The translations under genes were made by a program, and so were the position numbers. From Aliidiomarina sedimenti (GTDB taxonomy: Bacteria > Pseudomonadota > Gammaproteobacteria > Enterobacterales > Alteromonadaceae), in the NCBI RefSeq assembly GCF_003986955.1, contig NZ_PIPN01000001.1, positions 558,001-622,000 of the forward strand: a DNA stretch of 64,000 nucleotides, written 5' to 3'. The notes below the pieces were generated by a model, which had not been told where the DNA came from, searched no databases, and saw only the letters and a program-made list of their open reading frames with translations. Positions 10,202 to 12,290 of this stretch are shown here, in pieces. Each line of letters opens with the position of its first letter. The stretch's first letter is position 1.

Positions 10202-10840
10202 TTAAAGCACAGCGTCGGGCTGTTGATCAGGCTGCGCTTTCTGAAATGCGTCAATCTGCTGCAAGTTTTCATAAACCTGCAACAGCCGTGGATACGGCGA
10301 CAAATCAATCTTAAATCGCAGTGCGTTGTACACCTGCGGCACCAGACACACATCTGCCAGGCTCACTTCATCACCCACGCAACATGCACCCGCATGTTTC
10401 TCCAGACGCTTTTCAAATGCCGCAAACGCCGACGACACCCAATGCTCGATCCAGGCCTGACGGCCCTCATCACCGGCATTCAACGTGCCACTAACATACT
10501 GCAGTACCCGTAAATTGGTAATCGGCTGCAAATCACACGCCATATCCAACGCCAGCATGCGCACAATCGCCGCCTCTTTCGGGTCCTCCGGCACCAGCAA
10601 CGGCCCCGCCTTGCTGTCCAGATACTCAATAATCGCCAGCGACTGATTAAGCTCCAGCTCACCATCAACCAGCGTCGGCACCAGCTTAGCCGGATTCAGC
10701 TTCGCATAGTCGGCACTTTTCTGCTCGCCGCCATCTTTAACCAGATGCACCGGCTTGTAGTCAAACGCCAACTGCTTCAGGTGCAACGCAATCCGCACCC
10801 GATAACTAGCCGACGAACGCCAATACCCATAAAGTTCCAT
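10202..10840 (-). CDS. maiA: Maleylacetoacetate isomerase (zeta-class glutathione S-transferase)
   Basis: Glutathione-dependent cis-trans isomerase converting maleylacetoacetate to fumarylacetoacetate in tyrosine/homogentisate breakdown. 212 residues with a thioredoxin-like N-terminal domain and a helical C-terminal domain. The zeta-class active-site motif appears as SSASYRVRIAL at residues 9-19; the Cys of the SSCS form seen in eukaryotic enzymes is Ala while the Ser residues stay. QSLAIIEYLD marks glutathione binding. AGGAGG precedes the ATG. Same strand as hppD-hmgA-fahA but separated from fahA by 427 bases holding two palindromic elements. Confidence 0.93.
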   Translation of the reverse strand: MELYGYWRSSASYRVRIALHLKQLAFDYKPVHLVKDGGEQKSADYAKLNPAKLVPTLVDGELELNQSLAIIEYLDSKAGPLLVPEDPKEAAIVRMLALDMACDLQPITNLRVLQYVSGTLNAGDEGRQAWIEHWVSSAFAAFEKRLEKHAGACCVGDEVSLADVCLVPQVYNALRFKIDLSPYPRLLQVYENLQQIDAFQKAQPDQQPDAVL

Positions 10841-10883
10841 AAAACCTCCTAGTTGCGCACTCGGCGCGAACGGGCGTCGCAGT

Positions 10884-11040
10884 TGGACATTGAGGAAAAG
10901 GCTGGCTTCCGTGGGCGCCGGCAGACTCGTTGCTGGGGACGCCGTAAATACATCCCTGTAGGCTCGGCTCGCGCATCCATGCGCTCAACGCCCCAACAAC
11001 GAGTCCTGCCGTCTCCCACACGCCAGCCTGTCACTGTCCT
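10884..11040. repeat. Long imperfect palindrome, unit A
   Basis: Outer arms 10884-10938 and 10991-11040 are largely complementary (GGCAG(A)CTCGTTG.TGGGG against CCCCAACAACGAGTCCTGCC, and GGCTGGC against GCCAGCC). Between them lies a 30-base core (10935-10964, starting GGGGACGCCGT and containing ATACATCCCTGTAGG) and a small hairpin GCGCAT-CC-ATGCGC (10971-10984). The region has no credible gene. Unit B carries the same core in reverse orientation. Confidence 0.8.
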
Positions 11041-11106
11041 GTTTATCTTGCCCGAACTTGTCAACAATCCACGCAAGCGCTCTCAAGGCTGATCGCGATG
11101 CTTGCA

Positions 11107-11252
11107 GCATGCAGGATTGGCGCGTGGCGGATGGCATGTTTCCCTGGCGGGGTGTCGGCAGCATGGATGCTGCCGTCAAGCCTACAGGGATGTATTCACG
11201 GCGTCCCCTCCAGGGAATATGCCAGCCGCCACAGAAGCCAATCCCTGCATGC
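11107..11252. repeat. Long imperfect palindrome, unit B
   Basis: Arms 11107-11152 and 11204-11252 pair as GCATGCAGG.ATTGGC...GTGGCGG.TGGCAT.TT.CCCTGG and its complement. The core at 11179-11208 is the reverse complement of the unit A core with one difference in 30. A small hairpin GGCAGCAT-GG-ATGCTGCC sits at 11157-11174. Arm and inner-stem sequences differ from unit A, yet pairing is kept, which points to selection or propagation of the structure. It begins 16 bases downstream of the fahA stop on the transcribed strand. Confidence 0.8.
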
Positions 11253-11267
11253 TCCCCCGATGCGCGG

Positions 11268-12290
11268 TTATTCAGGCCCGTCGTAGCGGACGACTTTTTG
11301 TTCGATGGAGCCGAAGATGCTTTGGCCGCTGGCGTCGAGCATTTCCATGTGAATGGTGTCGCCGTATTTCATGAAGCCTGTGGCTGGTTTGCCATCGCGG
11401 ATGGTTTCAATCATGCGCACTTCGGCAATGCAGCTGTAGCCGACGCCGCCTTCTGAAATGGCGCTGCCATGATCGGTGCCCTGCTTGTTAGATACAGTGC
11501 CTGAACCGATGATTGAACCGGCCGCTAATGGGCGACTTTTCGCTGCGTGTTCTACCAGGCGCGAAAAGTTAAAGGTCATATCAACGCCGGCGTTCGGTTC
11601 ACCGAACAATTCACCGTTGTAGGTTGAACGCAGTGGCAAGTGCAGTTTGCTCTCTTTCCATGCATCCGCTAACTCATCCGGGGTTACCGCGACCGGTGAA
11701 AATGCTGACGAGGGTTTGGACTGGAAGAAGCCAAAGCCTTTTGCCAGTTCGCCTGGGATCAGGCCACGCAGCGAGACGTCGTTCACCAGCATCACCAAGC
11801 GAATGTATTTCTCGGCGTTGTCGGCTTTAACCGCCATTGGTACGTCACCGGTAACAATTGCGATTTCGCCTTCAAAATCGATGCCCCACTCATCCGATGG
11901 CATCTCGATATTATCACGCGGGCCTAAAAACGAGTCAGAACCGCCCTGATACATAAGCGGGTCTTCCCAGAAGCTTTCTGGCATTTCTGCATTACGTGCC
12001 CGACGCACCAGTTCCACATGGTTTACATACGCACTGCCGTCGGCCCATTGGTAGGCGCGTGGCAACGGTGACTCACACTCGTCCTGATGAAAGGCGATGT
12101 CGTCACTGAATTTGCCGTTGTTCAGCGCCATGTAGCTTTCACGCAGTTTTTGTTCAACGTCATCCCAGTGATCCAGCGCGTACTGCATCGTCGGTGCGAT
12201 TTCCGGCACCATCACCGCCCGTTTCAGATCTTTACTGACAACGACCAGTTGACCATCGCGACTGCCATTTCTATAGGTTGCTAACTTCAT
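11268..12290 (-). CDS. fahA: Fumarylacetoacetate hydrolase
   Basis: Last step of homogentisate degradation: splits fumarylacetoacetate into fumarate and acetoacetate. 340 residues. The metal-binding and catalytic core is visible in the DFEGEIAIVTGDVP segment and the VNDVSLRG and GSGTVSNKQGTDHGSA segments typical of the FAH family. Overall length matches the short bacterial form paired with the 377-residue HmgA. Starts three bases after hmgA on the same strand, so it is clearly part of the hppD-hmgA-fahA operon. Confidence 0.93.
   Translation of the reverse strand: MKLATYRNGSRDGQLVVVSKDLKRAVMVPEIAPTMQYALDHWDDVEQKLRESYMALNNGKFSDDIAFHQDECESPLPRAYQWADGSAYVNHVELVRRARNAEMPESFWEDPLMYQGGSDSFLGPRDNIEMPSDEWGIDFEGEIAIVTGDVPMAVKADNAEKYIRLVMLVNDVSLRGLIPGELAKGFGFFQSKPSSAFSPVAVTPDELADAWKESKLHLPLRSTYNGELFGEPNAGVDMTFNFSRLVEHAAKSRPLAAGSIIGSGTVSNKQGTDHGSAISEGGVGYSCIAEVRMIETIRDGKPATGFMKYGDTIHMEMLDASGQSIFGSIEQKVVRYDGPE

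Follow-up and report, generated by a model that had tools for sequence, protein, structure and literature searches.

An inverted pair of YPAL/RU-2-like palindromes between fahA and maiA of Aliidiomarina sedimenti: very probable mobile elements with a CsrA-like core

The 427-nt gap between fahA and maiA, in the homogentisate operon of Aliidiomarina sedimenti, very probably records an insertion of mobile DNA: its two palindromic units would be non-autonomous, MITE-like elements of the YPAL/RU-2 kind, facing each other in inverted orientation across a 77-nt spacer, between genes that touch or overlap in relatives. At the least, the touching genes of an operon have been separated by such an insertion. 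The core of these units also unites repeats of Idiomarina, methanotrophs, Stenotrophomonas and other Gammaproteobacteria, and its conserved loops suggest what it is for. Tentatively, class-wide mobile palindromes may carry a constant ‘cargo’, a two-site CsrA/RsmA-binding module, on interchangeable MITE ends. The features listed here lie in a window of 64,000 nt (contig NZ_PIPN01000001.1, positions 558,001 to 622,000), and positions are those of the window; the A. sedimenti genome is G000, its sister genome G010, and R1 is a search model described below.

10202-10840, minus strand: maiA, homogentisate operon
10841-11267: the complete insert, filling the fahA-maiA gap (427 nt); missing in 14 of 17 same-genus genomes
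10841-10897, minus strand: new maiA leader, with AGGAGG directly 5' of the start codon; assigned from sequence, and of the loci compared matched in G000 and G010 alone
about 10898-11029, core-sense strand minus, the operon strand: unit A, about 132 nt; 88.1 bits with R1; limits by eye and arm pairing
10942-10962, minus strand: unit A hairpin 2 (CC-UAC-AGGGAU-GUA-UUUAC-GG), hexaloop 10952-10957; assigned from sequence
10971-10984, minus strand: unit A hairpin 1 (GCGC-AUGGAU-GCGC), hexaloop 10975-10980; assigned from sequence, loop kept across copies
11030-11106: 77-nt spacer separating unit A from unit B; full match in G000 and G010 only
about 11107-11252, core-sense strand plus, antisense to the operon: unit B, about 146 nt; 96.3 bits with R1; limits by eye and arm pairing
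11157-11174, plus strand: unit B hairpin 1 (GGCAGC-AUGGAU-GCUGCC), hexaloop 11163-11168; from sequence, covariation and loop conservation
11181-11201, plus strand: unit B hairpin 2 (CC-UAC-AGGGAU-GUA-UUCAC-GG), hexaloop 11186-11191; from sequence, covariation and loop conservation
11268-12290, minus strand: fahA, homogentisate operon

That the gap holds two inverted palindromic units had been claimed in a sequence-only reading of this DNA, and the comparison bears it out: A and B are inverted copies of one another, with 73% complementarity over 123 nt, and the 30-nt core at 10935-10964 agrees with the reverse complement of 11179-11208 at 29 of 30 positions, one base being different, just as that reading had counted. 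With up to three mismatches allowed, the window has two matches to the 24-nt core, where 100 shuffles gave 0.00 on average. Each unit is predicted to fold far more stably than shuffled sequence, at -76.5 kcal/mol for unit A (z -6.79) and -100.3 kcal/mol for unit B (z -7.99); for each, none of 200 dinucleotide shuffles did as well. On the operon strand, the whole gap has an alternative in the form of a single hairpin of A paired with B (-239.9 kcal/mol). If transcribed, the units would form long RNA hairpins, each alone or A with B, separating fahA from maiA, and these would probably change mRNA decay or polarity; on this model the insert likely affects fahA-maiA expression. In the operon transcript, unit A would expose the core-sense strand about 100 nt before maiA, and unit B its complement.

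Mobility was one of the options raised earlier, as MITE-like palindromes, and it is now supported by empty sites in relatives, by copies across the genus and by the YPAL/RU-2 core. All 17 genomes of the genus, A. sedimenti included, have a detectable fahA; in 14 of them its stop codon and the maiA start overlap or are separated by no more than 2 nt (maiA start codons, GTG among them, were read by eye). The 427-nt insert is present in the two sister genomes only. In the remaining genome, G011, fahA is followed by one unit resembling unit B and then by other genes, with no maiA in the stretch compared. An 85-nt spacer query has full-length matches in G000 and G010 alone among 58 genomes, the next best reaching 36.5 bits over 22 nt. 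The flgH-flgI gap is a second filled and empty site: allowing up to 6 mismatches, a search of the loci of the 17 genus genomes finds the core in the sister genomes and in none of the other 15. Between aspS and yebC two inverted units are found in the sister genome, one complete (93 bits) and one partial (34.5 bits); A. sedimenti has a shorter unit remnant there (16.4 bits), for which a deletion is the best reading. At two more orthologous sites, a unit pair is arranged oppositely in the sister genomes; the spacers are different at one of these sites and have only a stretch in common at the other.

Arms differ among copies yet keep their pairing, with strong covariation. Model R1 was built on 43 copies picked for pairing (52 were picked and 9 dropped) and so leans to the structure; for this reason covariation was counted instead on set A2, in which thinning by identity, with no selection for pairing, left 69 of 167 distinct copies. 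Scored against a three-way junction with 26 pairs, A2 has 79.2% of its cells paired, as against 62.4 in shuffles; two-sided changes occupy 372 cells (148.8 shuffled, sd 10.8), and the covariation score is 0.425 (0.149 shuffled, 0.098-0.144 in slid versions of the structure). All 12 arm pairs and all 7 pairs of hairpin 1 show two-sided change. The number of pairs with such change, 20, does not discriminate alone, slid versions giving 13-20; the cells and the score do. Duplex energy, a poor measure, is -37.4 for a copy's own arms and -25.2 for crosses, with 80 of 167 copies under the 5th percentile of crosses; chimeric folds serve better, at least 15 arm pairs forming in 141 of 167 against 72 of 167. 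Compensatory change in place is found in orthologous Pantoea copies between fumA and SDR, GGGAATACAGTCAG/CTGACTGTATTCCC in one and GGGAACACGGTCAG/CTGACCGTGTTCCC in another. Selection on the fold is one possible source of the arm covariation; template switching inside a palindrome, which can also yield paired changes, is another. Copies in relatives and covariation, the two observations on which the sequence-only reading had staked its case, were thus both found.

The argument for a YPAL-type mobile element is strong. In Table 1b of PMC2759123 the RU-2 core is given as GCGCC-AAGGAT-GGCGC, and next GAGCC-TAC-ATGGAT-GTA-TTTACGGCGTC; the core of our units has the order and letters of this RU-2 (YPAL) core. 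Yersinia similis copies align with unit A over 45 nt (87%) and with unit B over 53 nt (79%); there the alignment stops, and no likeness of arms or ends was found beyond this core of 45-53 nt. The term YPAL-type is used, rather than YPAL in the strict sense, because only the core aligns and because unit B has no match in plasmid records or phage records, whereas an RU-2 query matches 17 of 72,556 plasmids (15 of these over at least 80% of its length) as well as 5 of 5,426 E. coli genomes. Like the units, YPAL/RU-2 elements are palindromic, about 130-170 nt long, multi-copy and intergenic, with both GGA hairpins in the core; our units, of about 132 and 146 nt with internal inverted repeats, compare with 130-169 nt for YPAL and YPAL*. 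The relevant parts of PMC2229807 describe YPAL as about 168 bp long, with duplications of 3-26 bp at targets spanning or adjoining dyad symmetry, and as a possible influence on RNA stability; PMC2847712 reports 37-144 copies in 10 of 11 Yersinia species and 2 in Y. ruckeri. Unlike Yersinia YPAL, the units are found in many other Gammaproteobacteria, and those of this genus stand in inverted pairs around a spacer. To our knowledge, most descriptions of YPAL-type repeats come from Yersinia, and we know of no role for the core. In the literature searched we noticed no report of such repeats outside the enterobacteria and found no occurrence of the core sequence strings and no paper naming YPAL together with CsrA, and the mobile-repeat literature found does not name CsrA; host breadth, end swapping, the orientation rule and the CsrA-type core were not seen there.

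At its gathering thresholds Rfam has no match anywhere in the window. A permissive scan gave eight: MIR1437 (32.5 bits, E 7.5e-4), MIR1144, mir-2060, dr1 and two lncRNAs were rejected as chance, and two matches to Ysr224, one per unit, at 27.4 bits (E 2.9e-4) and 22 bits against a gathering score of 70, were retained as a lead. The sRNA family Ysr224 (RF02770), from Yersinia, shares its core with the units. ERIC and Correia/NEMIS MITEs are, like the units, small and non-autonomous, with RNA that folds into long stem-loops (PMC2229807). TA-rich ends, found in one subfamily of Methylotuvimicrobium buryatense, are a further feature in common with them. Their core sequence is presumably unrelated to that of the units. 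The TwoAYGGAY motif (Weinberg 2010, PMC2864571), whose name implies two AYGGAY loops, resembles the units by name only; it was dropped as an identity, being absent from the Rfam matches of both the gathering and the permissive scans.

Copies are numerous and widely distributed. With R1 there are 9 in A. sedimenti, and copies in 15 of 17 genomes of the genus, in 54 of 274 sampled genomes of the class (E 1e-4, own genome counted) and in 32 of 398 sampled across the phylum, all 32 belonging to the same class; in searches over more than 40 genomes the filters are stricter and weak matches are lost. One methanotroph genome has at least 150 copies. Core pattern matches number at least 119 stretches, in hosts that span several groups of Gammaproteobacteria; the class-wide pattern fixed K and Y at two loop N positions, both left free in the genus searches. 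Hosts among the matches listed include Idiomarina (a MAG), Methylotuvimicrobium, Stenotrophomonas, Ectothiorhodospira, Thioalkalivibrio, Sedimenticola, Microbulbifer, Pantoea and Yersinia. Apart from the first, we take these to include methanotrophs, purple and sulphur-oxidising Gammaproteobacteria and enterobacteria. The earlier association of the core with marine gammaproteobacteria is right as far as Idiomarina goes and too narrow as a description.

One way to understand a constant core on variable arms is that it acts when folded as a single strand and is kept for that. In our judgement, the leading candidate for that action is that the two core-sense hexaloops would bind one CsrA/RsmA dimer; we infer from likeness of sequence that such binding may be the reason for the constancy. 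Across the 69 copies the hairpin-1 loop is C58 A57 N G63 G62 A58 N G63, and the stem columns are variable; CANGGANG is intact at hairpin 1 in 44 of the 69 and at hairpin 2 in 68, the latter conservation being partly built in, as A2 copies were found via hairpin 2. With 12 letters of hairpin 2 left open, ANGGAN is present in 316 of 334 contexts, at loci that had been gathered by that core, and the N positions of the loop vary (T160 G140 C23 A11; C179 T133 G12 A10). A hairpin-2 stem other than TAC/GTA occurs in 65 copies, of which 51 retain ANGGAN and 48 are fully paired (CCC/GGG 31, TGC/GCA 6, TCC/GGA 4, TAT/ATA 3, four others). The final A-U pair drawn in hairpin 2 is absent in 36 of 69 copies, which fits a hexaloop there. 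The GGAs of unit B are 23 nt apart, start to start, a spacing within the reach of a CsrA dimer.

Hairpin 2, with its ANGGAN loop, matches UACARGGAUGU; the CsrA SELEX consensus is RUACARGGAUGU, in which ACA and GGA are invariant and mostly in hairpin loops, and RNAs bound by RsmE have an ANGGAN hexaloop (passages of PMC7652899). SELEX hairpins mostly have at most 4 contiguous pairs (PMC7652899); hairpin-1 stems of 7-8 bp and the long arms are stabler than these, so the hairpin-1 stems may suit CsrA imperfectly. RNAs of the CsrB/RsmZ type and the CsrA SELEX ligand carry ANGGAN-loop hairpins, as the units do; unlike CsrB/RsmZ, the units have two sites only, inside a long palindrome that is mobile and multi-copy. 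The csrA gene is common both in element-bearing genomes (50 of 54) and in the others (184 of 220), in lists matched by hand; A. sedimenti has it, and of the four element-bearing genomes that show none, one is 98% complete. Should CsrA bind the core, each insertion would bring a ready-made site, present on a single strand, next to a new gene; transposition would rewire the Csr/Rsm network or titrate CsrA, hosts would tolerate insertion in mRNA 3' ends chiefly in the site-hiding orientation, and mobile repeats would be a source of new sites for a global regulator. Separately, a weak CsrB-like RNA was noted at G000:C4:159773-160002 (29.7 bits, gathering 71), with weaker matches in G007, G010, G011 and G013.

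Placement relative to genes was scored on ORFs called mechanically by length, without annotation. Of 207 copies, 33 lie inside long ORFs, 9 are far from ORFs and 165 could be placed, 108 of them nearest a gene 3' end, a preference weaker in M. buryatense (51 vs 40). YPAL/RU-2 elements share this preference. Convergent gaps hold 45 of 153 copies, as against 67 of 315 in the background, and divergent gaps 23 of 153 against 70 of 315. At 3' ends 89 copies are antisense and 19 sense (p 5e-12), at 5' ends 25 and 32, and a cruder run had the same direction; with one vote per neighbour-gene family in all sets, the counts are 97 antisense to 21 sense at 3' ends (7 ties) and 37 to 49 at 5' ends (1 tie). 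The excess at 3' ends implies that mRNAs usually carry the strand without the GGA loops, a point that counts against the CsrA reading. It may be that CsrA sites are selected against, that the other strand is the one in use, or that insertion has a polarity. Loop decay, to be expected were such sites in mRNA harmful, was not seen in sense copies at 3' ends (both loops intact in 27 of 30, against 103 of 123 antisense copies); as the loops of sense copies are no more broken, selection against CsrA sites gains no support here.

Two other accounts of the core deserve serious weight. In the first, to which we give somewhat under an even chance, what preserves the core is its use, as a DNA hairpin, by a transposase or replication factor, and the core's likeness to CsrA sites is coincidental. 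Arms that are paired in either orientation, and loops equally intact in sense and antisense copies at 3' ends, are what a DNA hairpin would give; against it, the ends vary among subfamilies with the core constant, and the loop positions that are free to change are the N positions of ANGGAN in both hairpins. In the second, plausible enough to keep in view although we lean away from it, it is the antisense strand that functions as RNA, by forming a hairpin in the 3' UTR that stabilises the upstream mRNA, as reported for YPAL. At gene 3' ends the core complement is the strand found in mRNA for 97 neighbour-gene families against 21, the Rfam Ysr224 model lies on that same strand, and RNA-stability effects are reported for Yersinia repeats in a review and a genome survey (PMC2229807, PMC2267715). 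The bias at 3' ends in M. buryatense (34 antisense, 17 sense) counts against it: one subfamily shows it without exception (11:0), two show it weakly (13:7, 8:5) and the rest stand at 2:5, an unevenness that insertion polarity fits equally well. Moreover, we know of no protein that reads NUCCNU loops.

The 120 distinct copies in M. buryatense comprise 52 with TATACC..GGTATA ends, 23 with GGAAC..TTCC, 27 of a third kind and 18 others. Because one core stands on several end types, transposases probably read the ends and not the core; resident transposases would then move the units in trans. Copies of the GGAAC..TTCC kind have an identical 3 bp on both sides in 20 of the 22 with both ends located, as judged by eye (TAA/TAA, TTA/TTA, once TTT/TTT); automatic duplication tests, anchored a base off, gave three-base matches in 5 of 21 and 3 of 22. 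For the TATACC..GGTATA kind, with both ends located in 40 of 52, no repeat was found past the ends (two-base matches in 3 of 40 vs 2.87 shuffled). The 25 commonest of the 189 Pfam families represented in 124 proteins neighbouring units include no transposase; the 124 are what remained of 140 proteins drawn from 248 candidates after 16 had been set aside on no formal rule, most of these (14) being no longer than 216 aa.

The hairpin-1 loop can itself hold an insertion. In Pantoea AJ2b, a 77-nt hairpin element with its own CAGGGATG loop lies inside it, and is missing in strain SUH1. Smaller GGA-loop hairpin elements within the units' hairpin-1 loop were seen at L201 compared with L200 (Pantoea agglomerans plasmids) and at L086, L173 and L181. 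In the fumA-SDR gap of Pantoea vagans C9-1 pPag3 (L207) there is a RelE/ParE-type toxin gene with an HTH gene; relatives have a unit there.

Mobilisation of the units as REP/REPIN sequences by a RAYT transposase is improbable. REP/REPIN sequences are palindromic repeats frequently found as inverted pairs, and close inverted pairs of our units do have a preferred arrangement outside the G305 loci (-+ 25, +- 1), but within G305 the counts are 4 and 5; units in tandem are frequent too, with 23 and 15 pairs. A Y1_Tnp match, moreover, is present in 16 of 17 genus genomes. However, the RAYT-like Y1_Tnp gene examined in A. sedimenti (L237, G000:C4:304500-310000) stands amid several copies of another palindrome, TTCAAGCCCCGCGCTTGAA, unrelated to the units; R1 finds no unit at E up to 1 in four RAYT loci (L237-L240); and genome G007 has 21 copies with no Y1_Tnp match, whereas G013 and G014 have one and three Y1_Tnp matches and no copies. 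The units are also different in sequence, and several times longer than the 20-40 bp that PMC3733652 gives for a REP; no link to a RAYT gene was found. RAYT was therefore rejected as the mover, and the earlier label ‘REP-like’ holds for looks only, the RAYT gene examined in A. sedimenti having a different repeat.

Least credible of all is that the insert is a conserved RNA acting in cis on the homogentisate operon, as an attenuator or riboswitch: the operon-gap location, the strong fold and the position 5' of maiA speak for it, but 14 of the 17 genomes of the genus have no such insert in the operon, similar units occur in many genomes beside proteins whose 25 commonest families have at most two members each, and 10830-11290 contains no terminator-like or promoter-like site. 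Attenuation of maiA by a conserved element, the alternative put forward by the sequence-only reading, is left unsupported by those 14 genomes; the inserted hairpins may still affect expression at fahA-maiA. Some local arrangements merit record. In G011, the homogentisate cluster is rearranged at the unit (L038), with TAGGTCAGGC-bearing repeats close by; at L191 (G015:C1:339500-343000), five units stand head-to-tail with a period of about 174 bp.
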